From assembly GCA_030147525.1 (NCBI GenBank), contig JASBVF010000016.1, forward strand, positions 248,001-312,000: 64,000 nt of DNA, read 5' to 3'. Of the stretch, positions 6,207 through 60,853 are shown piece after piece (within the stretch, counting starts at the first letter, position 1; every line of letters begins with the position of its first letter). The notes beneath the pieces were generated by a model. The model was not told the DNA's origin. It searched no databases and worked only from the letters and a program-made list of their open reading frames with translations. The DNA comes from Bacteroidota bacterium (GTDB taxonomy: Bacteria; Bacteroidota; Bacteroidia; Chitinophagales; Saprospiraceae). The position numbers were made by a program, and so were the translations under genes.

Positions 6207-6249
6207 GATGGTTAGATTGCTGGATTGTTTTTTCAGCAATCTAACCATC
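6207..6249. repeat. Hairpin between convergent polA and gldD
   Basis: A 16-bp perfect stem (6207-6222 with 6234-6249) around an 11-base loop containing a run of six T. Outside it, the words CCATCC/CCATTT recur up to about 6270. It probably ends both convergent transcripts. The left arm shares the string GATGGTT, then ATTGCTGGATTG, with the inverted repeat at 49067-49133. Confidence 0.75.
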
Positions 6250-6271
6250 CAACCATTTAGCCATCCAATCA

Positions 6272-6871
6272 TCAATTTTTCCACTCAAACGTCTCTAGCA
6301 TTTTCCCCACATCTTCCAGCATAAAATCATACACCGGCGCCAGGCTGTCCGGCCGTGCCTGCGTGTGGAAGTAGAGCGCCCCCCGGAAAAAATGTTTCTG
6401 TTCCAGCGTATCCGTCATAAAAAACTGGTATTTCGACGCCACCGGCCCGTCCACTTCGAACAGCATTCCCTTCACATTATTCGCCCGGTTGATGAAGGGC
6501 TTCTCCCCGATGTAAGTCGCCTTTTTGTTGTGCCAGTCGGTCATTTTGAAAGCATCCGTTTTCAGCTTGTCCGCCGGATTTTCTTTTGTGATGGGTGCGT
6601 AACTGCAATAAATCTGGCAATCGAACGCCGGCACGACAATGTTGAACCAGCACGGGTGCGCCGGTTTTTCATCAAAAAAAGTCGTGTCCTGCTGGATCTC
6701 AGCGTACTTCGGAAATTCAAAGGTGAAGTCGCAGTAATTTTCCGTGAACGGCTGGTAAGCTTTTTCAGGGTAGATGACTCTAGGATAGCCTCTTGGTTTT
6801 GGTGTGAATAACGGCTCTTCGCAAGCGGTGAAAAACAGAGTGAAAGCAAGCAGAAAAAACAGATTCTTCAT
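6272..6871 (-). CDS. gldD: GldD, gliding-motility / type IX secretion associated lipoprotein
   Basis: A 199-residue lipoprotein; the signal peptide ends at the lipobox FFTAC with Cys17. The mature start PKPRGYPRVIYPEKAYQPF and the CWFNIVVP, KYQFFMTDT and FRGALYFHTQ segments are the GldD pattern known from Flavobacterium johnsoniae, where gldD is needed for gliding and T9SS-linked functions. The protein is expected to be anchored in the envelope facing the periplasm. Start at 6871 is favoured over an upstream ATG because only it gives a lipoprotein signal. It lies downstream of mutY and ssb as in other gliding Bacteroidota, but gldE, normally between ssb and gldD, is absent. Confidence 0.9.
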   Translation of the reverse strand: MKNLFFLLAFTLFFTACEEPLFTPKPRGYPRVIYPEKAYQPFTENYCDFTFEFPKYAEIQQDTTFFDEKPAHPCWFNIVVPAFDCQIYCSYAPITKENPADKLKTDAFKMTDWHNKKATYIGEKPFINRANNVKGMLFEVDGPVASKYQFFMTDTLEQKHFFRGALYFHTQARPDSLAPVYDFMLEDVGKMLETFEWKN

Positions 6872-6893
6872 TATCAGCAACTTAAATAAACAG

Positions 6894-6929
6894 GAACGAG
6901 CCGTTTTTAGATTAAAAAACGGCTCGTTC
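6894..6929. repeat. Hairpin in the ssb-gldD spacer
   Basis: Arms 6894-6908 and 6915-6929 form a 15-bp perfect stem with a 6-base loop; the inner end of each arm is a run of five T or A. It begins 23 bases upstream of the gldD ATG. It could attenuate read-through from ssb into gldD or shape the gldD leader. Confidence 0.6.
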
Positions 6930-6961
6930 GAAAAGTTTGGTATTTTAAATTTCACGAAAAA

Positions 6962-7420
6962 TCAGAACGGCAGATCGTCGGCAGGGGCGTCGCCTGCGTC
7001 TTCCATGACCGGAGCCGGCTGGTCGTTGCGGGCTGATGTTACATTAGATGGTTCATCAGAAGCGCCGGGGAAATAACCGCTGCCTCCTCCGCTATTCCGG
7101 CTTTCGAGCATTTTGAAAGTGTTGGCCACCACTTCCGTGAAATATTTTTTCTGGTTGTCTTTGTCGGTGTATTCTCTGGTGGTGAGTTTACCCTCAACAT
7201 AGATAAGCATACCTTTTTTAAGGTACTTTTCCGCAATTTCAGCTTGAGAGCGCCAAACGACAATATTGTGCCACTCTGTCTGTTCGACTTTGTTTCCATC
7301 TTTGTCTTTGTAGCTTTCGTCAGTAGCTATCGAAAACTTGGCGACGGCAGCGCCGCTTTCCAAACGTCTTACTTCGGGGTCCTTCCCGAGGCGACCAATG
7401 AGCATGACTCGGTTTAACAT
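6962..7420 (-). CDS. ssb: Single-stranded DNA-binding protein
   Basis: A 152-residue SSB with the N-terminal OB fold (MLNRVMLIGRLGKDPEVRR, then WHNIVVW, then YVEGKLTTREY) and a glycine-rich linker. It ends in the acidic tip DDLPF, which recruits repair and replication proteins. Length and motifs are normal. It binds single strands during replication, recombination and repair. It follows mutY by 65 bases and precedes gldD, a conserved neighbourhood in this phylum. Confidence 0.97.
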   Translation of the reverse strand: MLNRVMLIGRLGKDPEVRRLESGAAVAKFSIATDESYKDKDGNKVEQTEWHNIVVWRSQAEIAEKYLKKGMLIYVEGKLTTREYTDKDNQKKYFTEVVANTFKMLESRNSGGGSGYFPGASDEPSNVTSARNDQPAPVMEDAGDAPADDLPF

Positions 7421-7485
7421 AGAATTGTAATTTATGAATTAAAGAGTGGTTTTCCCATACGCTCAAGTAACCGTGAGCTGTATGT

Positions 7486-8586
7486 TTAAAAGAGTTCTAA
7501 AGGTAAAAACTTTTGTTTGAAATACAAATCCACTACTTTGGGAAATGCAAAATTTTTCAGATTCCTTCGCTCCGTTTTTAACCAGGATGTTTCATCCGGC
7601 TGAAAAGCCCCATCTACTTCGATTTCCCAGAACCGGGCGATGATCTGCTGGTGCGTCAATTCCTGTTTGAACGGCGCCGAAACCCGCAACAGCCGGTACT
7701 CCGTTTTTTCCAGCCAAAGCTTCCAAATTTTATTTTTTAAAACAAAATTCCGCTCTTCCGGCAAAGACTCGGTTTCAATCAGCGGGAAGTCGTAGAGGTT
7801 TCGCCAGATGTCCTTCTCCGTGCGTTTTTTAATAAAAACACTTTCCTGTTGGTTGAAAATCAGGTAGTTGAAAAATCGTTGCCGCCGTTCCAGCTTTTTC
7901 GACTTCACCGGAAGTTGGGCAATTTTATTTTGTTTGAATGCTTCGCAATGCGGCTGCATTGGGCAGTCCGGGCAACTCGGCGACGCCGGTGTGCAGTGCC
8001 CCGCACCAAAATCCATGATCGCCTGGTTGTACTTTCCGGGTTGTGTTTCATCCAGAAGCTCCTGCGCCAATTTGGCAAATAGTTTTTTCCCCGCCGTCGT
8101 ATCCACCGGTTCTTCGATGCCGAAGTAGCGGCTCAGCACCCGGTACACATTCCCGTCCACTACGGCGTGGGGCAGGTCAAAAGCGAAGGAGGCGATGGCT
8201 GCCGCTGTGTAGTCGCCCACGCCTTTCAAGGCCCGGATGTCTTCGTATTTGTTTGGAAAAATGCCGCCCAGTTCGTTGGCTATAAATTTTGCGGCAGCAT
8301 GCAAATTTCTCGCACGAGAGTAGTAGCCGAGGCCCTCCCACATTTTCATCACCTCGTCCTCCGGCGCACGGGCGAGGTCGTGGACGGCGGGGTATTTTTC
8401 TTTGAATTTTTCGAAATAGGGGAGGCCCTGCTCCACCCTCGTTTGCTGCAAAATGATCTCGGATAGCCAGACGAGGTAGGGATTTTTTTCGCCCTTCCAG
8501 GGCAGGGGGCGGTGGTGGCTGGCATGCCAGCGGAGGAGGTTTTGGGTGAAAAAATGGTTTTTATCTTTATCAAAATGAAATGTCAT
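7486..8586 (-). CDS. mutY: A/G-specific adenine DNA glycosylase
   Basis: A 366-residue base-excision enzyme that removes adenine paired with 8-oxoguanine. Catalytic E43 sits in WLSEIILQQTRV and the catalytic Asp in VVDGNVYRVLSR. The helix-hairpin-helix is LKGVGDYTAAAIASFA. The four cysteines of the 4Fe-4S cluster show the exact C-x6-C-x2-C-x5-C spacing near residues 200-217. The C-terminal third is the NUDIX-like domain that recognises 8-oxoguanine. The start overlaps the end of the DUF4926 gene by 4 bases, suggesting translational coupling. Confidence 0.97.
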   Translation of the reverse strand: MTFHFDKDKNHFFTQNLLRWHASHHRPLPWKGEKNPYLVWLSEIILQQTRVEQGLPYFEKFKEKYPAVHDLARAPEDEVMKMWEGLGYYSRARNLHAAAKFIANELGGIFPNKYEDIRALKGVGDYTAAAIASFAFDLPHAVVDGNVYRVLSRYFGIEEPVDTTAGKKLFAKLAQELLDETQPGKYNQAIMDFGAGHCTPASPSCPDCPMQPHCEAFKQNKIAQLPVKSKKLERRQRFFNYLIFNQQESVFIKKRTEKDIWRNLYDFPLIETESLPEERNFVLKNKIWKLWLEKTEYRLLRVSAPFKQELTHQQIIARFWEIEVDGAFQPDETSWLKTERRNLKNFAFPKVVDLYFKQKFLPLELF

Positions 8587-8831
8587 GCAGCAACAGGCAT
8601 TCGCATGGAAGGGATCGCATTGGGTACCAAAGTTTGTAATTGGTTCTCGCGCAAGGTAAGTACACAGACTGTATTGCCGAGCACGTCGGTTACTTCCGCT
8701 ACATACCCTTCCCGGTGAAGTTCGTTGGCAGGCAAGTGTTCGACGATGGTAACCAAATCGCCTTTTTTCAATTTTTTCTCTGGCAGGTCTTCTGCAAGGG
8801 CAGCACTGGAATATAATTCGAATTTCATCAT
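8583..8831 (-). CDS. DUF4926 domain protein
   Basis: An 82-residue protein with the DUF4926 pattern: LAEDLPEKKLKKGDLVTIVE, then HREGYVAEVTDVLGNTV and a closing strand with VLTLRENQLQTL. It is a small beta-barrel-like domain resembling SH3-type folds. Start may be the first or second ATG (8831 or 8828). It follows the DUF6883 gene by 8 bases and overlaps mutY by 4. DUF4926 and DUF6883 genes often occur as neighbours, so a toxin-antitoxin-like or partner relation is possible, but nothing in the sequence proves activity. Confidence 0.75.
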   Translation of the reverse strand: MMKFELYSSAALAEDLPEKKLKKGDLVTIVEHLPANELHREGYVAEVTDVLGNTVCVLTLRENQLQTLVPNAIPSMRMPVAA

Positions 8832-8839
8832 CTTAAATT

Positions 8840-9145
8840 TTAATCAGCGGGGACGAGCGTTACAAACCGTGGTAATTCCGTCCCTTTTTCCCAAATCCAC
8901 ACTGTTTTTACTCGCAAATTACGCAAATTTCCAGTGATGGAATACAGTGTTCCAAATTCGGTTACTTCTTCTTCAAATGCCTCATTTTTTAGAAGTGAAC
9001 GAATATCCTCCTCCAAAGTTTTCCAATTTTCAAGCGTGTATCCTCCCATGCTCAGAAATTTCGATTTATCTGCTCTCGCACGAGGCAGCAAAAGGTATTT
9101 CGTGAGCTTGTCTTCTGCGATCTGGCTTTGGTGAGGAAGTTTCAT
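8840..9145 (-). CDS. DUF6883 domain protein
   Basis: A 101-residue protein starting MKLPHQSQIAEDKLTKYLLL, chosen because an in-frame extension to 9289 would overlap the permease gene and reads as its shadow. It follows the DUF6883 layout: a short helix ending KLTKYLL, then DKSKFLSMGGYTLENW, helices, and a final strand pair with VKTVWIWEKGTELPRFVTL. Related domains are found fused to phage head and polymorphic-toxin proteins, which suggests a role in conflict or nucleic-acid processing, but the function is unknown. It sits 17 bases after the permease and 8 before DUF4926. Confidence 0.65.
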   Translation of the reverse strand: MKLPHQSQIAEDKLTKYLLLPRARADKSKFLSMGGYTLENWKTLEEDIRSLLKNEAFEEEVTEFGTLYSITGNLRNLRVKTVWIWEKGTELPRFVTLVPAD

Positions 9146-9162
9146 GGATGTCAATTTTCTTT

Positions 9163-10512: not shown

Positions 10513-10520
10513 CTGTGGGT

Positions 10521-10597
10521 GATTGTTTGATTGTCCGATTGTTTGATTGTTGTTTGCCACTCAACCATCAAACAATCAAACCATTCAACCATTCAAA
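10521..10597. repeat. Inverted repeat of 8-nt tandem words between ABC ATPase and permease
   Basis: The left half is four tandem octamers of the type GATTGTTT (10521-10552). The right half is four tandem octamers of the type AACCATTC/AACAATCA (10563-10594), roughly the reverse complement. The centre (10553-10562) is unpaired. It fills nearly the whole 72-base spacer and ends 8 bases before the permease ATG. Confidence 0.8.
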
Positions 10598-11217
10598 TTT
10601 ATTTGTTTTGAAAATTTTTCTTTCAAACGCCCGTCGTGCGTCACCACCAGCAGCGTGGCGTTCACTTCGCTGGCCGTTTCTTCCAGCAGGCGGATCACTT
10701 CCTCTGTGTTCACGTCGTCGAGGGCCGAGGTCGGCTCGTCGGCGAGGATGACCTCGGGCTTGTTCACGAGCGCCCTTGCGATGGCGGCTCGTTGGCGCTC
10801 GCCCTGGCTGAGGTCACTCGTCTTTGCATTGATTTTGTGGCCGATAGCCAGACGGTCGAGCAGGTGGACGATGCGGTTTTTATCGGCGGGCACCCCGGCA
10901 AGTTGTTGCGCCAGCGCCAGGTTTTCACCTACCGTCAAAGAGCGAACGAAATGCGGGTTTTGAAAAATGATCCCGATATTTTTACCCCGGAATTTATCCA
11001 ACTGACTGGAAGACAAGGCGTTGAGCGTTGTTTGACCTAAAATAACCTTGCCCTGCCGGGGCGTCAGCAGCCCGCCGAGCAGGTGCAGCAGCGTCGTTTT
11101 ACCGCAACCCGACTGGCCGAGCAGTAGCCAATGTTCGCCCGTTTCACAATGAATATCGGGGAAGCGCAGCGCCGGGCCGCTGTTGTAGGAATATTGAAGA
11201 TTTTCTGTTTTGAGCAT
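10585..11217 (-). CDS. ABC transporter ATP-binding protein (MacB/LolD-like)
   Basis: A 210-residue ATPase with Walker A GQSGCGKTT (34-42), Q-loop in FQNPHF, signature LSQGERQRAAIARAL, Walker B VILADEPTSALD (155-166) and H-loop THD. All catalytic residues are present. It closely resembles LolD/MacB-type ATPases and pairs with the FtsX-like permease encoded 72 bases downstream. The two are separated by an inverted repeat whose right edge touches this gene's stop. It would power envelope transport from the cytoplasmic face. Confidence 0.95.
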   Translation of the reverse strand: MLKTENLQYSYNSGPALRFPDIHCETGEHWLLLGQSGCGKTTLLHLLGGLLTPRQGKVILGQTTLNALSSSQLDKFRGKNIGIIFQNPHFVRSLTVGENLALAQQLAGVPADKNRIVHLLDRLAIGHKINAKTSDLSQGERQRAAIARALVNKPEVILADEPTSALDDVNTEEVIRLLEETASEVNATLLVVTHDGRLKEKFSKQINLNG

Positions 11218-11221
11218 GGTT

Positions 11222-11315
11222 GAAATTTGGGGTTGAGAAGGGTTGAGAAGAGTTGATGCAGGTTGATTTTCTCAACCATCTCAACTCTTCTCAACTCTTC
11301 TCAACCATTTCAAAT
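11222..11315. repeat. Inverted repeat of 10-nt tandem words upstream of the ABC ATPase
   Basis: The left arm has four decamers of the type GGTTGAGAAG (11231-11270). The right arm has four of the type TCAACTCTTC (11272-11311). The reverse complement of the right arm reproduces the left with a few substitutions. It sits between the methyltransferase stop (11315) and the ATPase start (11217). Confidence 0.8.
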
Positions 11316-12034: not shown

Positions 12035-12057
12035 TTTGAAAATTCGTAACAGTGAGC

Positions 12058-12093: not shown

Positions 12094-12117
12094 TTTTGCA
12101 AAAATAAGCCAGCCGGG

Positions 12118-13390: not shown

Positions 13391-13478
13391 ATGGTTTTGG
13401 GGTTTTGGGGTTTTGAAGTTTCAGGAGGGAGTATCGCCCACTACCTGAAACCTCAAAACCATAAAACCTCAGAACCAT
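13391..13478. repeat. Inverted repeat between fumarylacetoacetase and the T9SS protease
   Basis: Arms 13391-13425 and 13444-13478 (35 nt each) match with about five differences, mostly transitions. The left arm contains the octamer GGTTTTGG in tandem. It ends 3 bases before the protease stop and begins 14 bases before the fumarylacetoacetase ATG. Confidence 0.8.
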
Positions 13479-13480
13479 TT

Positions 13481-23285: not shown

Positions 23286-23369
23286 GATGAACGCTGAGGC
23301 GCAGAGACGCTGAGTTTTAAAAAATCAAACTTCGTTAAAACTCTGCGTCCCTGCGTCTCAGCGTTCATC
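23286..23369. repeat. Inverted repeat between pheS and gatA
   Basis: Arms 23286-23320 and 23335-23369 (35 nt) match with three differences around a 14-base loop. The core word is of the CTGCGTCTCAGCGTT type. It fills most of the 107-base spacer and ends 5 bases before the pheS stop. Confidence 0.85.
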
Positions 23370-24397: not shown

Positions 24398-24407
24398 TGA
24401 AAAAGGA

Positions 24408-24573
24408 TTGAGGGAGAGAAGGATTGAAGGATTGAAGGACGGTAATTGTTAAATGCCGCCTTTCAAGGCTTGAATCTTTCTCAAAACAAGTCGCAAAAGT
24501 AAGGATTGGTTCCTAAAAACTTCCAATCTTCCCAGTTCTTCAATCCTTCAGTCCCTCAATCCATCAATCCTTT
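24408..24573. repeat. Widely spaced inverted repeat between pheS and the O-antigen ligase gene
   Basis: The word AAGGATTGA recurs in tandem at about 24408-24441. Its complement TTCAATCC recurs at about 24538-24573, with roughly 96 bases between. Each arm directly precedes the ATG of one of the two divergent genes, so both mRNAs start translation just after the same TTCAATCC word series. Confidence 0.75.
24494..24526 (-). promoter_or_regulatory. Promoter for pheS
   Basis: Minus-strand TACTTTTG (24494-24501), followed by CG, is an exact -7 element. A TTG (24524-24526) lies 22 bases upstream, slightly long. The predicted pheS leader is about 90 bases. Confidence 0.5.
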
Positions 24574-24575
24574 TT

Positions 24576-31867: not shown

Positions 31868-34201
31868 ATGATCCATCTTTACGGCATTCGTCACCACGGC
31901 CCCGGCTCCGCTCGGGCCGTCCTCTCAGCACTCGAAGCCAATCCGCCCGACTGCCTGCTTGTCGAAATTCCCGCCGATGCGGAGGATTTGATAAAATTGA
32001 TGACCGGAAGTGCGGCGGAAGCAATCGTGGGCGAGGCTCCAATCATCCCTCATCCCTCATTCCTCATCCCTCCCGTCGCCATGCTCATCTATGATCCGAA
32101 AGACCTGAGCCGGGCCAGCTACCTGCCCTTCGCCAGCTTTTCACCTGAATGGGTCGCTATCAATTTTGCACTCGAACACAACATCCCCGTGCGGTTCATG
32201 GACCTCCCGATGGAGCTGAATTTTGCGTTGGATGAAATGGAGAAACAAAATGTCCAGCTCACGTTCAATTTGCCGGCAGGCGATGAAAATTCACCCCCGC
32301 CAGGCGAGGATTGGGCGGAAGTACGCCGTGACCCAATGGCTTTTTTTGCCAACCTCGCAGGCTACGCCGACAGCGAGCGCTGGTGGGAGGTTACCTTCGA
32401 AAGCCCTGACAATGATACCGATGTTTTCACCGCCATTCTCGACATGATGACGGCACTGCGGGAAGGCTCCGAAGAGTCGGACCGAACGCTTCAGCGGGAG
32501 GCCCACATGCGTCAGACCATTCGCCGGGCGGTGAAGGATAGTTTTGAAAATATCGCCGTCGTTTGCGGAGCATGGCATGTGCCGGCGCTGGATGGTTTTG
32601 AAAAAATAAAAGTCAGCCACGACTCGGCCTTGCTGAAGGGCATCAAAAAAGTGAAAACCGCTGCGACCTGGATTCCCTGGAGCTACGACCGGCTCACTTT
32701 CCGGAGCGGCTACCGTTCGGGTGTGATTTCCCCGGCCTGGTACGAGTTGCTTTTTCATCAAAAAAAAGAAGCTGCCACCCGCTGGATGGTCAACGTGGCG
32801 AGGCTCTTCCGGGAGCAGGATTTGGACGCCTCTTCAGCCCACGTCATCGAGGCTATCAGGCTGGCGGAGACGCTGGCAACGATGCGGCGGCTGGCTGTGC
32901 CAGGCATCGAAGAATTGAAAGAGGCGGCCGTCACCACCATCTGCGAGGGTGATGCGGAGAAGCTGGAACTCATTGAAAGTAAGTTGGTTACAGGCCGTAA
33001 AGTCGGCAGCGTGCCCGATAAAATCCCCACCGTACCCCTCCAGAAAGACATCGAACAATGTGTAAAATCCGCACGCCTGTCGAAATATTGGGAAAATACG
33101 GACGAGGAGTGGCTCGGCGCCACCGCTGCCAATCCGCAGGGCGGCATCGACCTGCGGGAAGATTCCGGCAGGCTGAAAAGCTACCTGCTGCACAGGCTCA
33201 ACCTGCTCGACATTCCCTGGGGGAAGCTCATGGAACTCAGCCGGCATCAGTCGGCGGGCGGTTTTAAAGAGTTTTGGAAGCTGAAATGGACGCCCGAATT
33301 TGCCATTCGCATCATCGAAATGGGCGCCTGGGGCAACACGGTGGAGGAGGCTTGCGTGAATTTTTTAAGAAAAAAAACGGAGGAAACTACGGCCCTGCCT
33401 GCCCTCACCGGATTGGTGCAGCAAACTTTGAACGCTGATCTTCCGGGCGCTTTTGGTCTTTTGCTTCGCAAACTGGAAAACCTCGCCGCCCTCGCCACCG
33501 ACGTTTACCACCTGATGGATGCGCTGCCCCCGCTGGTGCAGGTCGTGCGTTACGGCAACACCCGTGGCACCGACGTGGGCGCTGTGGAGCAAGTGGTGCA
33601 ACACCTCGTGCCGAGGATTTGCATCGGCCTGCCAGCCGCTGTCGCCAACCTCGACGAGGATGCTTCGAAGGAGGCTTTTGAAAAATTGCTCAGCGTGAAT
33701 CGTGCATTGGGCATGCTCAACGATCCCGGGTTTCACGAGCCTTGGTTCGGCACCGTGCAAAACATTGCCGGAAGCGGGCAGGTGAACGGCGTCCTCACCG
33801 GCGCCTGTACGAGGATTTTGTTTGATAAAAAAATATACAGCGAAACGGAAGTAGCTACCCGGATGCGCTATGCCCTCTCCCGTGCCACACCGCCGCTGGC
33901 TGCTGCGCAATGGCTGGAGGGTTTTCTGCAAGGCAGCGGCCTGTTGCTGCTGCACAATCACTCGCTCTGGAATTTGCTCGACGAATGGGTGGATGAATTG
34001 GGTGAAGATAATTTCAGCGACGTGCTCCCGCTGCTGCGTCGTACGTTTTCCCGCTTTCCGCAACCGGAGCGGGAGCGGATGCTCAATCTTGCGAAGCAGG
34101 GGCAAGTGGAGGTAAAAATTGTGGAACCCGCTGATTTTGAGGAAGAAAGAGCAGCGGCGGTGGCGCCAGTGGTGCGGCTGTTGCTGGGAATTGAGAATTG
34201 A
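31868..34201 (+). CDS. DUF5682 family protein (EreA/ChaN-like N-terminal domain), orphan
   Basis: A 777-residue cytoplasmic protein. It opens with YGIRHHGPGSARAVLSALE and DCLLVEIPADAEDL, the His-His and Glu motifs that define DUF5682 and recall the EreA/TIKI/ChaN fold. Further conserved pieces are AVVCGAWHVPAL and TAATWIPWSYDRLTFRSGYR. The C-terminal two-thirds are helical. DUF5682 proteins normally stand in operons with a MoxR-type AAA ATPase, a VWA protein and DUF5691/SWIM proteins, described as conflict-like ternary systems. None of these is adjacent here. The ATG follows a TAATTTCG element (one mismatch to consensus) by only a few bases. Confidence 0.85.
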   Translation: MIHLYGIRHHGPGSARAVLSALEANPPDCLLVEIPADAEDLIKLMTGSAAEAIVGEAPIIPHPSFLIPPVAMLIYDPKDLSRASYLPFASFSPEWVAINFALEHNIPVRFMDLPMELNFALDEMEKQNVQLTFNLPAGDENSPPPGEDWAEVRRDPMAFFANLAGYADSERWWEVTFESPDNDTDVFTAILDMMTALREGSEESDRTLQREAHMRQTIRRAVKDSFENIAVVCGAWHVPALDGFEKIKVSHDSALLKGIKKVKTAATWIPWSYDRLTFRSGYRSGVISPAWYELLFHQKKEAATRWMVNVARLFREQDLDASSAHVIEAIRLAETLATMRRLAVPGIEELKEAAVTTICEGDAEKLELIESKLVTGRKVGSVPDKIPTVPLQKDIEQCVKSARLSKYWENTDEEWLGATAANPQGGIDLREDSGRLKSYLLHRLNLLDIPWGKLMELSRHQSAGGFKEFWKLKWTPEFAIRIIEMGAWGNTVEEACVNFLRKKTEETTALPALTGLVQQTLNADLPGAFGLLLRKLENLAALATDVYHLMDALPPLVQVVRYGNTRGTDVGAVEQVVQHLVPRICIGLPAAVANLDEDASKEAFEKLLSVNRALGMLNDPGFHEPWFGTVQNIAGSGQVNGVLTGACTRILFDKKIYSETEVATRMRYALSRATPPLAAAQWLEGFLQGSGLLLLHNHSLWNLLDEWVDELGEDNFSDVLPLLRRTFSRFPQPERERMLNLAKQGQVEVKIVEPADFEEERAAAVAPVVRLLLGIEN

Positions 34202-34255
34202 AATTGGGAAATTGCCGGGGCACCCCCAATTTCCCAATTTCTTAATTTCCCAATT
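34185..34255. repeat. Inverted repeat overlapping the end of the DUF5682 gene
   Basis: Arms of about 35 nt (34185-34219 and 34221-34255) built from words of the AATTGGGAA type. The left arm encodes the last residues and stop of the DUF5682 protein; the right arm ends at the stop of the convergent gene. Related words recur at 54012-54080. Confidence 0.7.
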
Positions 34256-40992: not shown

Positions 40993-41001
40993 GATGATCT
41001 G

Positions 41002-41095
41002 AAATTAGAAATTAAGAAATTGGAACTTTTGCAAGTGCTGAAAACCAGGCAGGCTGCAGTTTTCTAATTTCAAATTTCGATTAAAGTCTGCTTAA
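41002..41095. repeat. Loose inverted repeat between methyltransferase and gcvT
   Basis: The words GAAATTAGAAATTAAGAAATT (about 41001-41021) are complementary, with gaps, to 41061-41091. They belong to the same AT-rich word family as the repeats at 34185 and 54012. The match is weaker than at the other sites. Confidence 0.45.
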
Positions 41096-41114
41096 CCATA
41101 CATCACCGAATTTC

Positions 41115-42223: not shown

Positions 42224-42303
42224 TTTCTCCCGCTGATCCCGCAAATTTCCGCAGATTTCCCCAAAAGTTTATCTGCTAAAATCTGTGGGATCAGCGGGAG
42301 AAA
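42224..42303. repeat. Inverted repeat between convergent gcvT and Rieske oxygenase genes
   Basis: An outer perfect 17-bp stem (42224-42240 with 42287-42303) continues inward with mismatches to about 35 nt per arm. The left arm holds two tandem decamers of the form GCARATTTCC (42241-42260). It probably terminates both convergent transcripts. Confidence 0.85.
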
Positions 42304-47307: not shown

Positions 47308-49068
47308 ATGAATAAAATGCGAGTCAATCTTTCATTGGCCTTATTGGCCGTTGTTCTGCTTTTTTCCTGCAAAACTGACCAAAATGTCACCTGGAAACAC
47401 AACGATAACACTGTCCGGGTCCGGCTCAGTGCAGGCATTCAGGCGCTGAATCCCTACCTCGCCCGCAGTGCCTGGGTTCGGGTGGTTGCGGATCTCATGT
47501 TTCAATACCCGATGGATTTTGATCCTGAAACGTTGGAGATGGCTCCACAACTGGTCAAGGCAGCTCCGGTCGTCAGCGATATTACGGATGGAGAATTTGC
47601 CGGCGGGCAGTCATTTGTTTTTGAAATATTGGATGAAGCTGTCTGGGAAGACGGGCAGCCGGTAACCGGTTACGACTACGAGTTTTCGGTGAAAACCCTT
47701 TTTAATCCAAAACTGCCGCTACAGGCTTACGCCAATTATTTTGAATTTGTCAAGGATATTCAGGTTGACGAAGCCAATCCGAAGAAATTTACCGTCATCG
47801 TCGACCGCAAATACATTTTGAATTATGGAGTGGTCAGTAACGTCACGATGTTGCCGCAGCATATTTACGACCCGGAGGGTTTGATGAAAAATTTCACCTT
47901 CCGTGAGCTTTCCGACCCAGCTAAATCAGCCGGTTTTGCTGACGACGAGCGGCTCCAGAAATTCGCAGATGCTTTCCTGTCTCCGAAATATGGCCGGGAG
48001 GTTGTCTCGGGTTCCGGGCCCTACAAAATTGTGGACTGGGTGGATGACCAGCGTATCGTTTTAGCCAAAAAAGAAAACTGGTGGGGTAACGGCCTGTCCG
48101 GAAAATATACCATGCTTGCAGCCTACCCTGACACGATTATTTTCCTGCCAATTCCTGATCAGACAGCAGCTATGACAGCGCTGAAAAGCGAAGATTATGA
48201 CGTAGGATTCGAGCTGGAAACTAACCAGTTCATGGAACTGAAGCAGGATTCTTTCCTGCAGGATGTGTATAATTTTTACACGCCGCCCCGCTTTGCTTTT
48301 TTCTACACGGCCATGCAAAACCGCAATCCGAAACTGGCTGACAAGCAGGTAAGGCAGGCACTTGCCCGCATCATCGACATGGACGCCATCATCAGGGATT
48401 TTTACAATGGCTTGGGAGAGCGGGTTATCGGGCCGTTTTTACCGGATAAAAAATACTACCACAAAGGCTTGAAACCGATCCAGATGAACCTCGACGAAGC
48501 CCGCCAGCTTCTCGCTGCCGCCGGCTGGAATGACAGCAACGGCAACGGCATTCTTGACAAAACGATTGACGGCCAGCTTACGGAGTTGAAACTTGAATTT
48601 CTTTACACGCCCGGTGTTGTTTATCAGGAAAATTTCACTGAAGTTTTCAAAAACAATGCAAAAAAAGTAGGCATTGAAATCGAGCGGGTGCCGGTAGAGT
48701 CCAACGTTATGGGCCAACGCATGCGCAACGGAGAATATGAACTGGCGGGCCGTGGCGCCGGTGCTTACCCGCTTCCCGACGATCCGAAACAGTTTTTTCA
48801 CACGGACAGCGCCCAGCCTGGCGGCTCCAATTACACCCGTTTCGGAAATGCGGAAACGGATGCGCTGATTGACGAAATCCGACAGACCACGGACGAGGCC
48901 AAACGCAACGAACTCTACCTGAAACTTCAGGAAGTCCTCTACGACGAACAACCCATGATTTTTCAGTTTGCTCCGCTCGATCGTATCGTTGTTCACAAAC
49001 GTTTCGATGCCATCGTGACACGCAAGTCGCCGGGTGTGTCATTGCAGCATTTGAAATTGAAGAATTGA
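47308..49068 (+). CDS. Peptide ABC transporter substrate-binding lipoprotein (SBP family 5)
   Basis: A 586-residue lipoprotein; start 47308 gives the lipobox VVLLFSC with Cys21. It has the SBP_bac_5 layout: VRVRLSAGIQALNPYLARSA, VWEDGQPVTGYDYEFSVK, VSGSGPYKIVDWVDDQRIVL and KQVRQALARIIDMDAIIRDF. It captures peptides or related solutes in the periplasm. It is followed by two permease genes, and the set forms an importer. The start of the inverted repeat coincides with its stop codon. Confidence 0.94.
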   Translation: MNKMRVNLSLALLAVVLLFSCKTDQNVTWKHNDNTVRVRLSAGIQALNPYLARSAWVRVVADLMFQYPMDFDPETLEMAPQLVKAAPVVSDITDGEFAGGQSFVFEILDEAVWEDGQPVTGYDYEFSVKTLFNPKLPLQAYANYFEFVKDIQVDEANPKKFTVIVDRKYILNYGVVSNVTMLPQHIYDPEGLMKNFTFRELSDPAKSAGFADDERLQKFADAFLSPKYGREVVSGSGPYKIVDWVDDQRIVLAKKENWWGNGLSGKYTMLAAYPDTIIFLPIPDQTAAMTALKSEDYDVGFELETNQFMELKQDSFLQDVYNFYTPPRFAFFYTAMQNRNPKLADKQVRQALARIIDMDAIIRDFYNGLGERVIGPFLPDKKYYHKGLKPIQMNLDEARQLLAAAGWNDSNGNGILDKTIDGQLTELKLEFLYTPGVVYQENFTEVFKNNAKKVGIEIERVPVESNVMGQRMRNGEYELAGRGAGAYPLPDDPKQFFHTDSAQPGGSNYTRFGNAETDALIDEIRQTTDEAKRNELYLKLQEVLYDEQPMIFQFAPLDRIVVHKRFDAIVTRKSPGVSLQHLKLKN

Positions 49069-49133
49069 TGGTTGAATTGCTGGATTGTTTGATCGTTGGA
49101 ATGTTGATCAAACAATCCGGCAATCTAACAATC
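49067..49133. repeat. Inverted repeat overlapping the stop of the binding-protein gene
   Basis: Arms 49067-49094 and 49106-49133 (28 nt) match with four differences around an 11-base loop. The left arm begins in the TGA stop; the right arm ends 11 bases before the permease ATG. The left arm shares words with the hairpin at 6207-6249. A stem this strong within the operon may reduce permease expression relative to the binding protein. Confidence 0.85.
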
Positions 49134-49143
49134 ACGAAAACCC

Positions 49144-52743: not shown

Positions 52744-52758
52744 CGCCGCTTTTTGAGA

Positions 52759-52834
52759 GTAGGTAAGCAGGCGAGCAGGCAGGTAGGCAAGTATTGCCGG
52801 TGCTTACTCGCCTGCTTACCTGCTCGCCTACTAC
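52759..52834. repeat. Inverted repeat of 8-nt tandem words in the leader of the PLP enzyme gene
   Basis: The left arm is four tandem octamers of the form AGGYRRGY (52761-52792). The right arm is four of the form CGCCTGCT/TGCTTACT (52801-52832). It ends 14 bases before the ATG at 52849. In the mRNA it would form a long GC-containing stem that hides or regulates the start region. Confidence 0.8.
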
Positions 52835-53994: not shown

Positions 53995-54011
53995 ATTGCA
54001 GCCCTCAGTTT

Positions 54012-54080
54012 TTTTGAAATTGGGAAATTGGAAATTCGTGAAATTTCTCAATTTCCCAATTTCCAATTTCCAATTTCAAA
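54012..54080. repeat. Inverted repeat between the PLP enzyme and sigma factor genes
   Basis: Arms of about 33 nt built from 7-8 nt words of the type GGAAATTG (left, from 54013) and CAATTTCC (right, to 54080). The sigma factor's presumed GTG start follows 11 bases later. The words match those at 34185-34255. Confidence 0.8.
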
Positions 54081-54090
54081 CCGCCCTCAC

Positions 54091-55755: not shown

Positions 55756-55764
55756 TTTGTTGGC

Positions 55765-55874
55765 GCCGCCCCGGCCCCAGCCCCTGACCCCTAAAGGGGA
55801 ACCACTTCGGGAAGCGACTGCGAACTTCCCCGTGTGGTTCCCCTTTAGGGGTCAGGGGCTGGGGCTGGGGCCGC
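55765..55874. repeat. Long GC-rich inverted repeat spanning the apparent start of the TonB receptor gene
   Basis: Arms 55765-55805 and 55834-55874 (41 nt) match with two or three differences; the inner 27 bp are perfect. The 28-base loop holds a further small stem. The core word CCCCTGACCCCTAAAGGGGA resembles dispersed repeats seen in many Bacteroidota. The right arm is read into the receptor protein. Confidence 0.9.
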
Positions 55875-58396
55875 TGTTTCTTTTCCTTTTTTTTTCAAAC
55901 CTCCTCCTCGCCCAGCAGGAAACCCCGCTCACCCTTCGCTTCGAGAATAACTCCCTGCCCGAAGCATTTCAAAAAATCAGCGCCGCCGCCGGGGTGGAAT
56001 TTTCCTACGACCCCTCCGTTTTACCGAAGGAAAAAAAAGTCACAGCCACTTTCGAACGGGCGTCGTTGCGGCAAATCCTCGATTTTTTACTCAAAGACAC
56101 CGGCCTGGGCTACGTGACCCTGGGCAACCGGATCATCGTGAAACCCCGCTCGGAACTGGAGCCGGAACGCCCGGCGCTGTTCACCTTCAGCGGGTTCATC
56201 CGGGATTCGCTGAGCGGCGAGGAACTCATCGGCGCCAACGTCTGGGAGACCGGCGAGGGCCGGGGCTGCTCATCGAACGAGTACGGTTTTTACTCGCTGA
56301 CCTTGCCGCAGGGCGATCATTTTTTGAAAATCAGTTACTTAGGATATCAGGATAAAATTTTTAAAGTCAGCTTCGACCGCAGCCGCCGCTTCGATTTTCA
56401 CTTGAAACCTGCCTCCGGCGAACTGGCCCTCGTCGTCGTCACCGATTCGCTACAGGCGCAGACGGGGCGCAATCTTGGCGAAGCCAGCATCCCGTTGGCT
56501 GCTTCGGGTTTGCTGCCCACGGTGTTGGGCGAGAAGGATATTTTGAAAACCCTGCAACTCATCCCCGGCGTCAGTTCGGGGGCCGACGGGCTGAGCAGCT
56601 TCGGCGTACGGGGCGGCTCGCCTGACCAGACATTGGTGCTGCTGGACGAGGCGCCGTTGTACAATCCCACTCACCTGGCCGGATTTTTTTCCGTTTTCAA
56701 CACGGAAGCGCTCAAGGAAATGCGGTTTTTGAAAGGCGCATTCCCGGCGCAGTACGGCGGGCGGCTGTCCTCCGTGCTGGAAGTTTTTATGAAAGAGGGC
56801 AACGCCAACCGCTTCACCACGAGCGGCGGCATCGGCCTGACGTCGAGCCGCCTGCAACTCGAAGCGCCGCTTTTTGATAAAAAAGGTTCGGTCATGGCCG
56901 CCGGGCGGCGCACCTACCTCGACTGGTTTTTCAAAGGCAAGGACGGCTTCCATTTCTTCGACGGCAATCTGAAAGGCAACGTGCGGTTGGGTGAAAAAGA
57001 CCGGCTGTTCGTGGCGGGCTATTTTGGCCGGGACGTGCTGCGGGCGGGCGACGATCTCAGCCTCAACTGGGGCAACGCCACCGGTACCCTGCGCTGGAAC
57101 CGCCTGCTCGACGAGAAAAGTTTTATGAACACTTCGCTGATTTTCAGCGACTACCGCTTCCGGGTGAAGACTGAGAAGACGAACGGCGGGGAAAACAACT
57201 CCGGCATCCTTAACGCTCACCTGAAACAAACTTACCGCCGCTACTTCAACCCTCGAAGTACGTTGACCGTGGGCTGGAGCGCCATCCTGCACCGCTTCAA
57301 GCCCGGCGAATACCGCAACAATTTTGATGAACTGCTCCGCATTCCCGACCGCAATGCGCTGGAGGCGGCTGTTTTTGCCTCGCACGAGTGGCAACCTGTG
57401 CCGTGGCTGGAAATTCAGACCGGCATTCGCATTTCGAATATGACGCTGCTGGGCACGGGCGAGCCGTTCTTTTTTTACGATGAAACAGGCGCCCAGACCG
57501 ACTCGGTTTTTTTCAAAAAAGGCGAACGCATTGTGAACTATGAGGGCATGGAGCCGAGGGCGCTGCTGAAATTTCACGCCGGGCGGACGACCGGTTTTCA
57601 GCTGGGCTATGGCCGTAGCTACCAGTACGTTCAGTTGGCTGGCAATTCCGTGCTCAACAACCCGATCGACGTCTGGCTGCCTGCCAGCCCGAACATTCGC
57701 CCGCAGATCGCTGATCAACTGGACGCCGGGTTTTTTCAGCAATTATTTGAAAACCGGTGGGATCTGTCGGTGGAGGCGTTTTATAAAATTTTACAAAACC
57801 AGATCGAGCACCGTTTCCCCGAAGTACTGCTGCCCTCGGTGGACATCGAGTCGAAGCTGGCCTTCGGCACGGGGCGGGGCTACGGCGTGGAGGTGATGCT
57901 GCGCAAAAACAAGGGCCGCCTGCAGGGCTGGCTCGGCTACGCCTGGGCGAAGCACCGGCGGCAGTTCGACCAACTAAACGATGGCCGGGAATTTCCCGCC
58001 CGCTTCGATTTCACCCACTCGATTTCTGCCGTGGGGGCTTACGAGTTGGGTAAAAAATGGACGTTCGCCGCCGTCTGGACCTATCGAACCGGCAATCCGG
58101 TGACGGTGCCGGTTGGGAAATACCAGTTTGACAATCAGGAAGTTGTGCTGTTCGGGCCGATCAACGGTTACCGCTTCCCGGCTTACCACCGGCTGGATTT
58201 TTCTTTTACTTCGCAAGTGCAACGGGGCAAGTACTGGGAGTCGAACTGGGTGCTGGGGCTGTACAACGTTTACGCCCGGCGCAACCCGGTTTTTGCGCAA
58301 ATCGAGCAGGATTTTGACCGCCCGGAGCGGGTGAAGATCAACCTGATTGCGCCGCTGCTGGTCATCCCGGCGATCAGTTGGGAGTTTAAATTTTGA
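55832..58396 (+). CDS. TonB-dependent receptor with STN signalling domain
   Basis: An outer-membrane receptor of about 854 residues from the proposed GTG at 55832. An in-frame ATG at 55703 would overlap fecR and place the signal far inside. The signal FLFLFFSNLLLAQQ is intact but its upstream part is encoded by the inverted repeat, so the true start is uncertain. The order is an STN domain (LTLRFENNSLPEAFQKISAA onward), a carboxypeptidase-like domain (FSGFIRDSLSGEELIGANVW), a plug (FGVRGGSPDQTLVLLDEAPL) and a 22-strand barrel. STN implies signalling to FecR. No SusD partner is present. The ligand is unknown. Confidence 0.92.
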   Translation: MWFPFRGQGLGLGPLFLFLFFSNLLLAQQETPLTLRFENNSLPEAFQKISAAAGVEFSYDPSVLPKEKKVTATFERASLRQILDFLLKDTGLGYVTLGNRIIVKPRSELEPERPALFTFSGFIRDSLSGEELIGANVWETGEGRGCSSNEYGFYSLTLPQGDHFLKISYLGYQDKIFKVSFDRSRRFDFHLKPASGELALVVVTDSLQAQTGRNLGEASIPLAASGLLPTVLGEKDILKTLQLIPGVSSGADGLSSFGVRGGSPDQTLVLLDEAPLYNPTHLAGFFSVFNTEALKEMRFLKGAFPAQYGGRLSSVLEVFMKEGNANRFTTSGGIGLTSSRLQLEAPLFDKKGSVMAAGRRTYLDWFFKGKDGFHFFDGNLKGNVRLGEKDRLFVAGYFGRDVLRAGDDLSLNWGNATGTLRWNRLLDEKSFMNTSLIFSDYRFRVKTEKTNGGENNSGILNAHLKQTYRRYFNPRSTLTVGWSAILHRFKPGEYRNNFDELLRIPDRNALEAAVFASHEWQPVPWLEIQTGIRISNMTLLGTGEPFFFYDETGAQTDSVFFKKGERIVNYEGMEPRALLKFHAGRTTGFQLGYGRSYQYVQLAGNSVLNNPIDVWLPASPNIRPQIADQLDAGFFQQLFENRWDLSVEAFYKILQNQIEHRFPEVLLPSVDIESKLAFGTGRGYGVEVMLRKNKGRLQGWLGYAWAKHRRQFDQLNDGREFPARFDFTHSISAVGAYELGKKWTFAAVWTYRTGNPVTVPVGKYQFDNQEVVLFGPINGYRFPAYHRLDFSFTSQVQRGKYWESNWVLGLYNVYARRNPVFAQIEQDFDRPERVKINLIAPLLVIPAISWEFKF

Positions 58397-58401
58397 TAAA
58401 A

Positions 58402-59178
58402 ATGCATTTTAAAAAACTGATATTCAGCGGTTTGGCTGCTTCGCTTTTTTTCGCTGCCTGCAAAAAAATAGCAATCGAAGGCCAGGAACTCGAAGTTTAT
58501 CCCATCGTCGTCGAGGCGGTAATGGGCAACCTGGCGCCGGTGGAAGTGACGCTCAGCCGGGCCGTGCCGTTCAGCCAGGGAGATTCGATCGCTCCCGTTT
58601 TTGAAAATGCAACGGCGGTCGTCGTGGATGGAAATGGAAATTCTGAAGCGCTTTACCAGTGGGAATCGGGCCGTTTTTCCGGTGAAATGACCACCCAACC
58701 CGGCCAAACCTACATGCTCCGCATTCAAACGGAGGAAGGCAATTTCGAGGCGATGGCCGCTGCCCCGTCCGGCCTGCTCGCCATCGACACCGTGACGTTC
58801 GAACGCCACAACGACACGACGGTGACGTTGCGTTGCCACCTCGTGTTGCCACCCAGCCGCCCGGTGTACGCCCGTGTGAAAGTTTTCATCGATGGCTTCC
58901 TTTGGGAGAATTTTTTTATCGAAAAAACGCTGGAGCAGCAGGCCGGTTTTACCCAGGAAATTGAGTTAAACTACATCCTCCCCGGCGCTGAGGCGACCGT
59001 GGAGGTGGTCACGATGACGAAGCCCGCCTTCGAATTTTACCGGGCCATCGGGGTGAATACACTGGGCAATAATTTCAATCCTTCCAACGCCAAAAATCCG
59101 CCCACCAACCTGAAGGGTGGAGCGATCGGTTTTTTCAGTGCATCGCTGGCGGATACTACTTCTTTGATTATCTGGTAG
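58402..59178 (+). CDS. DUF4249 lipoprotein
   Basis: A 258-residue lipoprotein (MHFKKLIFSGLAASLFFAAC, Cys20) of the DUF4249 family, a common companion of TonB receptors in Bacteroidota. It starts 5 bases after the receptor's stop. Typical pieces are ELEVYPIVVEAVMGNLAPVE, VTLSRAVPF and AEATVEVVTMTKPAFEFYRA. It is predicted to be surface-exposed or periplasmic and to help the receptor bind or pass its ligand, but no biochemical role is known. Confidence 0.92.
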   Translation: MHFKKLIFSGLAASLFFAACKKIAIEGQELEVYPIVVEAVMGNLAPVEVTLSRAVPFSQGDSIAPVFENATAVVVDGNGNSEALYQWESGRFSGEMTTQPGQTYMLRIQTEEGNFEAMAAAPSGLLAIDTVTFERHNDTTVTLRCHLVLPPSRPVYARVKVFIDGFLWENFFIEKTLEQQAGFTQEIELNYILPGAEATVEVVTMTKPAFEFYRAIGVNTLGNNFNPSNAKNPPTNLKGGAIGFFSASLADTTSLIIW

Positions 59179-59340
59179 TTATCCATTTTTTGGATTTTAT
59201 TTCAAAAAAAAATCTCACCGCTTTGGGGGTGCCTGCCGCCCTGCCTGTATTACTTACCAAAGACAGGATGCAAGACGCATCGCAATTAAAACGGTAAACC
59301 TCTACCCAAACTTCCTGATAATTTTTCATCAACATCTGAG

Positions 59341-59378
59341 ACACAGGACCGGCCCGTGCTGTGACCGGTCCGTGTTTT
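59341..59378. terminator. Hairpin with T-run between the TonB cassette and the next gene
   Basis: ACACAGGACCGG (59341-59352) pairs with 59365-59375, one mismatch, then TTTT. It lies 163 bases after DUF4249 and 21 before the next ATG, so it may end the receptor transcript or act as an attenuator. The preceding 160 bases hold no gene. Confidence 0.6.
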
Positions 59379-59398
59379 CATCAAAACAATCTACAGTT

Positions 59399-60055
59399 AT
59401 GAAAACTAAAATTTTTTTGATCGCCATCATGCTTGGCAGTATGTTCAGCCATGCCACTGCCCAGGAAAAACACGAACCTTCGCTTGTTTTCAAAGTAAAT
59501 CCGCTGGTGCTTTTCGGTAAAAAACAATTTTATGTCGAAATGCCGGTGAACCGCTACAGTTCGGTTGAATTGAGCGTCGCATCGTTCGGTAGCTGGGCAA
59601 GTTTAGACTTGAATTACGACAATGTTTTTTCCGAAGAAAAAGACCTGACGAACTGGCTGTTCATTCCGTCTTACCGGTTTTACATCAATGGGAAAGCGCC
59701 CCACGGCGCCTATTTCGGACTGTATGGGCGCACTAAACTCAGCTCCGGCCCGGTCAAAGTTGCAGTTGATAAGCCTGGCTTCGAAGGGGATTACGACCAC
59801 TACCGCACGGTGGCCGAACTGGGCGGCGGCTTCGTCTTCGGTAAGCAGTGGGTGACCCGTGCAAATGCGGTTTTTGACCTCTTCGTTGGTTCCGGCACCA
59901 GCTACCGCTGGGTGGACAACGACTATGACGACCCCACAATGACGGATAAAATTTACGAACAGGACGTACTCGGCGGAAGGGAGAGCCTCGACCGCTGGCT
60001 GCACCAGCTTCGGGTCGGGTTCACAGTTGGTTTCCAACTGGGCGGCGACCGCTAA
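59399..60055 (+). CDS. Outer-membrane-type beta-barrel protein of unknown function (DUF3575-like)
   Basis: A 218-residue secreted protein with signal MKTKIFLIAIMLGSMFSHAT (cleavage after TAQ). The mature part alternates strands such as FYVEMPVNRYSSVELSVASF and TVAELGGGFVFGKQWVTRAN, ending with FTVGFQLGGDR, as in small outer-membrane barrels. It resembles the DUF3575-like group. It precedes a second barrel-like gene by about 110 bases; the two may belong together. Confidence 0.75.
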   Translation: MKTKIFLIAIMLGSMFSHATAQEKHEPSLVFKVNPLVLFGKKQFYVEMPVNRYSSVELSVASFGSWASLDLNYDNVFSEEKDLTNWLFIPSYRFYINGKAPHGAYFGLYGRTKLSSGPVKVAVDKPGFEGDYDHYRTVAELGGGFVFGKQWVTRANAVFDLFVGSGTSYRWVDNDYDDPTMTDKIYEQDVLGGRESLDRWLHQLRVGFTVGFQLGGDR

Positions 60056-60168
60056 AGCAATTTTCAAACACCTTTTTTCAATAATTTTTAGTGAAAACAA
60101 TCTGCGTTTGGATGCCCGGGCTGGGAAGTTCAGTCCGGGTCGTCCAGGCACCCAATTTCAAAACGATC

Positions 60169-60753
60169 ATGAAAAATTTAATTCTCTTTACCCTGACCCT
60201 CATTTTATCAAATGGCCTCCACGCTCAACAGTACAGCCAGCCAAAACGGATTTTCAAGAAAAACCAAATGGACGTTCAGGCCGGCGTAGGACTGCTACCA
60301 ATGGCCCGCATCCTAGACGGCGCCACCATGAAAATGTTGCCCGTCAGCATCGAAGTTAACCGGATGCTGGGCGATCGCTTCAGCCTTGGCCTTTCCCACG
60401 GGCGGTCCGTCGCCGAGAGCCGCCCCATCATCATTTCCGACGGCGTCAGCCAACGGGTGACCAACCACACCAACCAGACGGCTCTGAAGGCTGCCTTCCA
60501 TCTTACCCGCCTCGACAATGCGGACTTTTACGGCGGTTTCATGCTGACTGTGAACGACTCGAAATTTTCCGTGGATAAGGGCGACATGGATTTTTTGAAA
60601 ACGCACCACGGCATCGTTTCACGGAAAACAAAACTGACTTACACGGGCTTCGTCGGCAGCAGGTATGCGATTTCTTCGAAATGGAATTTGTTTGGCGAGC
60701 TTGGTTTCGGCGAGTCGGTGCTGACGGTGGGAGTGGGGTACCGGATCAGGTAG
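60169..60753 (+). CDS. Small outer-membrane beta-barrel protein of unknown function
   Basis: A 194-residue secreted protein; start 60169 gives signal MKNLILFTLTLILSNGLHAQ. The mature protein has paired strands: MDVQAGVGLLPMARI, RFSLGLSHGRSVAE, FYGGFMLTVNDSKF, and a final ELGFGESVLTVGVGYRIR, a typical barrel end. No family is recognised. It may share function with the gene before it. Confidence 0.75.
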   Translation: MKNLILFTLTLILSNGLHAQQYSQPKRIFKKNQMDVQAGVGLLPMARILDGATMKMLPVSIEVNRMLGDRFSLGLSHGRSVAESRPIIISDGVSQRVTNHTNQTALKAAFHLTRLDNADFYGGFMLTVNDSKFSVDKGDMDFLKTHHGIVSRKTKLTYTGFVGSRYAISSKWNLFGELGFGESVLTVGVGYRIR

Positions 60754-60766
60754 ATCGTGGCAGCTA

Positions 60767-60853
60767 AAATCAAAAATCAACAATCATGTAATCTGTAATC
60801 TTAAACCGATTTGATTTAAGATTGCAGATTACATGATTGTTGATTGTTGATTT
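60767..60853. repeat. Near-perfect 39-bp inverted repeat between convergent genes
   Basis: Arms 60767-60805 and 60815-60853 differ at two positions around a 9-base loop. The words AATCAACAATCAACAATC repeat within the arms. The right arm reaches into the stop codon of the E1 dehydrogenase gene (60852-60854). It probably terminates both convergent transcripts. Confidence 0.9.

Follow-up and report, generated by a model that had tools for sequence, protein, structure and literature searches.

What are the long quasi-palindromes that occupy spacer after spacer in a 64,000-nucleotide (nt) stretch of a Saprospiraceae genome, and how might they arise and persist? The stretch, called the window below, is positions 248001-312000 of contig C31 in a 7.08-Mb assembly of 59 contigs, labelled G000. 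Judged by polA, its nearest named relatives are Bacteroidota genomes, of which many carry the label Saprospiraceae, in a comparison that may omit the genome's own or very near records. We found that most of these sites belong to a recurring kind of intergenic hairpin whose arms are tandem arrays of short words. The hairpins occur in excess, hold preferred positions, share their words in families, have mirrored arms, and are retained in related species with other words. On the strength of sequence comparison we tentatively propose that they form a genus-wide class of intergenic stem-loops, built of inverted arrays of 7-8-nt (sometimes 10-nt) words, which may be written by template switching and would be used as decay barriers at mRNA ends.

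The abundance of the hairpins was studied in an 864-kb sample, consisting of the window and 40 further stretches of the genome, with ungapped inverted repeats of score at least 18 as the scan criterion. The sample contained 59 long inverted repeats, while three order-3 Markov resamples contained none; similarly, 44 were identified in the joined spacers, and none in order-1 to order-4 resamples (five each). This comparison had been set beforehand as the refuting check on a first-pass annotation of the window, which had claimed a recurring class of small intergenic elements; the excess is there, and the class stands, with words in families, elements that fill their spacers and clear edges against some homologous spacers. 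Fifty of the 59 inverted repeats were at least half intergenic; judged by eye, the 59 include some ordinary terminator-like stems. Because gene starts came from a simple gene caller, some hairpins were scored as coding (9/59 inverted repeats and 17/40 arrays). The counts exclude any element that overlaps called genes over more than 60% of its length or is not flanked by genes on both sides, and the tests on arms and loops cover arms of at least 20-22 nt and loops of at least 5-8 nt. A significant period was detected in 34 of the 64 elements of this genome with arms of at least 22 nt, the period being 7 nt in 12, 8 in 19, 9 in two and 10 in one. Scaling from the 34 periodic and the 50 mostly intergenic elements of the sample, we estimate about 280-410 such hairpins per genome. 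A search with GATTGNNYGATTG gave 37 matches in the genome and none for the reversed control.

In the window itself, the inverted-repeat search recovered 11 of the 13 positions listed in the first-pass annotation; 13391 was added by a separate scan, and 34185, whose two arms differ by an indel, was recognised through RNA folding. We folded 12 listed sites (24408 left out) together with 41002, using 200 dinucleotide shuffles for each. All 12 were more stable than 200/200 shuffles (z -3.3 to -13.9), and 41002 folded no better than its shuffles (z -1.41). The site at 24408 is an inverted repeat with 41-nt arms, 85% complementary, around a 94-nt centre, with divergent genes on either side. Arm periodicity against shuffled arms reached p<=0.02 at 10/13 sites, with periods of 7-10 nt, the p values being uncorrected for 13 tests and the arm limits set by hand. 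Among these ten, the best period was 8 at seven sites, 10 at 11222, and 7 at 34185 and 60767; the same comparison was not significant at 23286 (p 0.108), 42224 (0.052) and 55765 (0.070). The features are as follows, with z for folding stability relative to the shuffles.

6195..6261: word hairpin of the GATTGTTT family, between convergent polA and a gldD-like gene; z -11.8
10521..10592: word hairpin of GATTGTTT octamers, between an ABC ATPase gene and an FtsX permease gene, both on the minus strand; z -3.3, period 8
11231..11306: word hairpin of GGTTGAGAAG decamers, between a methyltransferase gene and an ABC ATPase gene, both minus; z -10.6
13391..13478: word hairpin of GGGGTTTT octamers, between two minus-strand genes, the upstream one ending at 13481; z -8.2
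23286..23369: hairpin of GACGCTGAG-type words, between a pheS-like and an amidase gene, both minus; z -12.6, period not significant
24400..24575: a pair of inverted GGATTGAA arrays with 94 nt between them, flanked by divergent genes; an atypical copy
34185..34255: word hairpin of the GGAAATTG family, arms differing by an indel, between convergent genes; z -3.9
40995..41110: inverted arrays of the GAAATTAG type, weak; 18/200 shuffles fold as well
42224..42303: hairpin of CGCAGAT-type words, between convergent gcvT-like and Rieske-type oxygenase genes; z -10.6, period p 0.052
49066..49134: word hairpin of the GATTGTTT family, between an oligopeptide-type substrate-binding protein gene and a permease gene; z -7.2
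52757..52832: word hairpin of AGCAGGCG octamers, between the HU gene and a Cys/Met pyridoxal-phosphate (PLP) enzyme gene, by inference in the 5′ leader of the latter; z -7.5
54013..54080: word hairpin of GGAAATTG octamers, between a PLP-enzyme gene and a sigma-factor gene; z -5.3
55765..55874: C-rich dispersed palindrome, a separate kind, with at least 8 further copies in the genome
60767..60853: word hairpin between convergent genes; z -13.1, 86-88% like a copy at G000:C46:86197

Neither a tRNA nor an Rfam family at the gathering threshold was identified in the window. The long quasi-palindromes and their arms of tandem 8-10-nt words, as first described, were thus both recovered. The assignment of all listed sites to a single class holds for most of them and fails for 55765; the grouping of words into families was likewise right. 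Ordinary stems were also seen in the window. The perfect 22-nt inverted repeat with A/T tracts at 20057-20106 is an ordinary two-way terminator-like stem, and several genus mates have similar stems in the corresponding spacer. A terminator-like stem at 52629-52674 follows the HU gene, about 80 nt before the word hairpin at 52757; its sequence is recognisable by eye across G000, G006, G007, G009 and G012, unlike that of the word hairpin.

Comparison of arms between unlinked loci identified 37 pairs scoring at least 18, and none for shuffled arms, which confirmed the word families; close-arm pairs include 42 of 74 elements, an enriched set that contains 15 loci fetched for matching known words. 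Among the word pairs, that of 60767 and C46:86197 is the clearest, with arms matching at 35/39 by score and loops that differ. The 5′ arms are G-rich (G > C in 63/81). We also found that the right arm carries its units in an order mirroring the left arm, with a likeness of 0.87 compared with 0.77 when units were permuted, and a higher value in 36/40 elements, although best-register detection somewhat favours mirrored order. This order fits the earlier suggestion of elements shaped by template switching. Intergenic arrays had an inverted partner in 17/23 cases in our own sample and were one-armed in 6/23; among the genus loci 13/18 were two-armed and 5/18 one-armed, but six of those 13 (all in G004) are doubtful because shuffled units also reach the threshold. 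Long one-armed heptamer arrays of AGGGAGT, TCGTGAC and AACCGAC were seen in G012 (L244:2956-4648), which has few hairpins. TGA was enriched 2.1-fold in the 5′ arms of this genome, while TAA (0.75) and TAG (0.80) were not, and stops in all three frames were present in 46/134 arms compared with 21 for shuffled arms. TGA-bearing words at a period of 7-8 would give such an excess; a role as backup stop codons in three frames is conceivable and was not adopted.

Thirteen other genomes of the same genus were available for the comparison of orthologous spacers. The retention test covered 17 gene pairs, each in at least three genomes, and excluded spacers over 400 nt, loci without genome assignment and gene pairs in fewer than three genomes; its cases are not independent. 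A mate carried a hairpin in 21/36 cases in which G000 has one and in 15/66 in which it has none (odds ratio 4.8, P=0.0005). This base test scored the G000 hairpins at 10521, 24400 and 52757 as absent, through score or gene limits, and counted the ordinary stem at 20057 and the plain G001 and G005 stems at 42221|42308 as hairpins. With other margins or thresholds the odds ratio was 3.9-4.8 (P 0.0005-0.0025), and at the widest margin, where 52757 was scored present and 10521 and 24400 still absent, the result held; without the two sites having ordinary stems it was 4.1-5.0 (P 0.001-0.003). Arm similarity was 0.85 within an element, 0.40 between orthologous elements (82 pairs) and 0.26 between non-orthologous ones (700 pairs), and 5/82 orthologous pairs were still similar (at least 0.7). 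Taken together, a gap that holds a hairpin in one species tends to hold one in its relatives too, but spelled with different words.

Individual spacers illustrate this turnover. The joint 49068|49144, between the substrate-binding protein and permease genes, has a word-built hairpin in 7/11 genus mates: the words are of the GATTGTTT type in G000, GGTGATTGGTGACTGG in G001 and G008, GTTGTTGATTG in G006, and of the GATTGTTG type in G005, G007, G009 and G011, while no hairpin was found in G002, G003 and G012, and the spacer of G004, 324 nt long, contains an unrelated inverted repeat. At 45164|46220, the spacers of G000 and G012 are only 30-33 nt long and those of G005, G006, G010 and G001 hold differently worded hairpins; one-armed arrays were seen there by eye in G003 and G004. 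The spacers orthologous to 23286 in G001 and G005 are hairpin-less and 30-31 nt long. The loop of 23286 has 15 nt in common with the G005 spacer, as if the arms enclose native sequence, and such an enclosure was not general over 78 elements. Of the genus loci retrieved, those of G008 and G010 form the nearest pair, with 85% and 81% identity over two homologous stretches and 87% over longer alignments; a second element-bearing genus had one mate. In two spacers of this pair the flanks match up to the hairpin or within about ten nt of it and the words differ, while in a third the words belong to a single family and the loop can be recognised. The comparison of homologous spacers for presence and absence, proposed at the outset, revealed filled and empty states with clear edges at some spacers.

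The hairpins are frequent between convergent genes and rare between divergent ones. The mostly intergenic elements comprised 23 convergent, 25 co-directional and 2 divergent cases, and the comparison spacers of at least 60 nt in the sample numbered 70, 267 and 107, respectively. Co-directional elements of this genome (n=39) start at a median of 5 nt past the upstream stop codon and end at a median of 21 nt before the next start. A U-tract is mostly absent, with at least 5 T in 8 nt at 8% of 107 sense-side flanks. Hairpins were also found at the joints of likely operons, between substrate-binding protein and permease genes (49066) and between ABC ATPase and FtsX permease genes (10521), and another operon-joint copy lies between annotated efflux genes on a Spirosoma plasmid.

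Based on the above results, we suggest that a word array may enter or grow in a spacer through short-patch copying and slippage, and that template switching at the replication fork would write its reverse complement alongside and later re-match the arms. The RNA stem, lying just past the upstream stop codon, might then hinder 3′-5′ exonucleases at gene ends and operon joints. We propose that, if the stem acts as an exonuclease barrier, any word would suffice and the stem would be retained, with words turning over through replacement of whole hairpins. In E. coli, operons regulated through decay have their upstream part protected by stable hairpins that lack a uridine tract, and among the ABC operons identified there it is the substrate-binding gene that is stabilised (PMC5927463); template switching is able to create and re-match RNA stems (PMC8794818). 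The mRNA stability structure named among the first guesses about these elements would be consistent with their position and gene context.

Whether the stems act as RNA or are shaped as DNA was approached through their mispairs. Co-directional elements of the own and genus sets together had 71 G-U (on the sense strand), 97 A-C and 122 other mispairs, 290 in all, and convergent elements had 22, 21 and 32, respectively. The 168/290 transition-type mispairs agree with the earlier remark that mismatches are often transitions. This pattern argues against strong pair-by-pair selection on RNA and favours decay or rewriting of the DNA itself. Single mispairs may be tolerated in a stem some 30 pairs long, and function of the whole stem is therefore compatible with the pattern. 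Loss of SbcCD as the cause of hairpin tolerance was considered and rejected, as the genome has an SbcD-family match above the cut-off; 22/40 genomes searched, this one included, have such a match.

Several observations weigh against the decay-barrier proposal. A G-U bias on the sense strand was not found among the 290 co-directional mispairs, so that no RNA-level selection on single pairs is visible. The HU gene has a terminator-like stem of its own ahead of the copy at 52757, the copy at 24400 lies between divergent genes, and the gene pair 21840|23375 has a hairpin in 0/4 mates. Periodicity was weaker in the genus-locus set, where only 9/27 elements had a significant period. The position bias would in large part follow from avoidance of promoters and coding sequence, and inserts may simply be tolerated in some spacers. 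Finally, the small but clear loop excess described below is compatible with hairpins being copied whole.

A neutral origin is about as likely as the mRNA-end reading. The hairpins would then be by-products of slippage and template switching, or of random insertion, surviving only where harmless and having no function. The mispairs, with no G-U preference and an excess of transitions, are as expected of unselected decay; moreover, word turnover is near-complete, the hairpin is absent in several genus mates, one-armed arrays exist, and the order convergent, co-directional, divergent follows the tolerance of spacers. However, the tight placement against the stop codon, the inverted partner in most intergenic arrays and the retention at orthologous spacers count against this reading, though spacer tolerance could cause the retention as well.

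It is rather unlikely that the hairpins are mobile palindromes, akin to repetitive extragenic palindromic (REP) elements and REPINs or to miniature inverted-repeat transposable elements (MITEs), that are moved whole, for example by RAYT-type Y1 transposases, with a fast-changing loop. Similar arms at unlinked loci and the filled and empty orthologous spacers would suit movement, an option that the first-pass annotation had considered, but loops are only slightly more alike than chance, no end tag or flank motif was found, and loop-flank duplications are at chance level. In a first test the loops of 32 close-arm pairs had a likeness of 4.38 compared with a null of 4.23, and were taken as not shared; a stricter null replaced this with a small clear excess (4.76 vs 4.19, sd 0.13, 45 pairs, 0/300 shuffles as high), and we accordingly lowered the weight of the decay-barrier reading and raised that of mobility. 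Trimming the loops by 3 nt on each side gave 4.76 vs 3.90 (17 pairs, 1/300 shuffles as high). The excess may stem from word copies extending into the loops. The end tag CGTC was found at 0/134 element ends, and GTAG at 7/134, above the roughly 2 expected from background, an excess that may be due to the AGTAGG word family; no common flank motif was found. Loop-flank duplications of at least 7, the kind covered by this test, occurred in 3/78 elements compared with a null of 4.1. Four Y1_Tnp matches were identified, three of them in frames of 198-211 amino acids; one gene (L250) lies about 95 nt from a word-type hairpin, whereas the other three have none close by. L248, L249 and L250 are three RAYT-sized Y1 transposase genes of this genome, and the hairpin close by L250, on one side of the gene, is long.

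The palindrome at 55765 represents a separate dispersed family in the same genome. This family is a C-rich palindrome of about 80-110 nt (CCCCTGACCCCTAAAGGGGAACCAC...), also seen at L118:2301-2408 and L303-L309; its copies are about 78-91% like the window copy, and the loop is partly conserved. It is REP/MITE-like and different from the word hairpins, and its larger loop excess argues against mobility of the latter. Likeness between its outer stem blocks was 12.4 vs 5.9 for the null, and 5.7 vs 4.2 for the inner 15-17 nt; normalised for length, its loop likeness (0.41) is hardly above that of the word hairpins (0.38).

More doubtful still is a dedicated or semi-dedicated DNA process that would write tandem 7-8-nt words and their mirror copies into gene gaps, so that stem modules across the genome would be interchangeable and their words disposable, with selection keeping the stem while words are rewritten faster than species diverge. 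Least probable are intrinsic (rho-independent) terminators, two-way between convergent genes, as the first-pass annotation had also supposed: the enrichment between convergent genes, the stable stems and a proposal that hairpin clusters terminate with less reliance on a U-tract (PMC8355165) would accord with them, but few sense-side flanks are T-rich, copies lie inside likely operons, ordinary T-tract stems (20057; 52629) exist in the same window, and 0/12 listed hairpins (in 5000-24900 and 41000-60990) were among terminator-like predictions, a weak point given a scan limited to loops of 3-8.

The hairpins also reach beyond the genus, thinly. Matches to GATTGNTNGATTGNTNGATTG were found in 14/100 genomes of the family and 14/247 of the phylum, our own included in both, and many are plain GATT repeats; among 11 inspected tandem-GATTG loci from other genera, one has an inverted repeat (score at least 15) at the match. 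A GAATGAG-word hairpin lies between efflux-system genes on a Spirosoma oryzicola plasmid (score 22.5), the one such element in a 50-kb stretch, so that density there is much lower. In Spirosoma sp. KNUC1025, another one (score 17.0) precedes a LytTR-family gene. A hairpin between efflux adaptor genes of Pontibacter actiniarum was seen by eye only and is below the scan threshold of 14. In the plasmid search, the GATTG query gave 5 weak partial matches (E 0.1) and the GAATGAG query 6 records; 23286 as query gave no match, and the Spirosoma region 4 records with no near copy of the region. Arms of 88 nt made of AATGCAG words were seen in Bacteroidota isolate HyVt-532 (L068:13244-13422).

How RNA stems originate and how their pairing is maintained has been a puzzle in evolutionary biology, template switching being one proposed answer (PMC8794818). 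With a few hundred copies per genome, and with orthologous spacers that are empty, one-armed or re-worded within a single genus, the present hairpins provide a natural experiment on this question. If they act on mRNA decay, much gene-end regulation here would be invisible to methods based on sequence conservation and covariation. The Spirosoma plasmid hairpins, and the one in Pontibacter, suggest cultured organisms for study.

Among the matches listed in the open-licence PubMed Central literature, no title or start of abstract describes such a class in Bacteroidota. REP elements and REPINs are, like the hairpins here, multicopy intergenic palindromes, but have a conserved unit, a tagged end and an associated transposase (PMC3116915, PMC3733652, PMC2817692), whereas here there are many word families and no common tag. 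The malE-malF type of hairpin is likewise stable, lacks a uridine tract and follows the gene for the substrate-binding protein in an ABC operon; its function was measured, whereas the role proposed here is putative, and tandem words are not described in the available part of that report (PMC5927463). BrickBuilt, a MITE of Porphyromonas gingivalis and thus of the same phylum, is intergenic with internal tandem repeats and predicted long stem-loops, but has one 23-nt unit, a leader and tail with terminal inverted repeats, and 19 copies (PMC4596501); the inverted arms of the present elements consist of many different 7-10-nt words, and a terminal repeat was not found. TAACTGA repeats of Beggiatoaceae, Cyanobacteria and some Bacteroidetes are also intergenic heptamer arrays scattered over phyla, yet they are direct repeats that, in the main genome studied, lie mostly near start codons (PMC4679880), and TAACTGA occurs in 0/67 arms here. 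The tandem heptamers GGGAATC of Xanthomonas and GGGGA(C/T)T of Nostoc are intergenic as well, and some inverted GGGAATC pairs could form stem-loops; unlike the hairpins here, they are of one G-rich word kind, studied as a quadruplex former (PMC4692102), and GGGAATC is present in 0/67 arms. The nearest described precedent is the P6b stem of the Nostoc and Calothrix trnL intron, in which tandem 7-nt words stand on both sides of the stem, and two word classes (TDNGATT, NNTGAGT) have been replaced repeatedly while the fold was kept (PMC4476775). These words resemble GATTGTT and GAATGAG here, though not strongly: TDNGATT occurs in 6/67 5′ arms of this genome (shuffle mean 3.9), with at least two copies in 4 (shuffles 0.1), and NNTGAGT in 6/67 (shuffles 4.0), with at least two copies in 1. 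P6b is one locus in a self-splicing group I intron, whereas the hairpins described here occupy hundreds of intergenic loci and comprise many word families.

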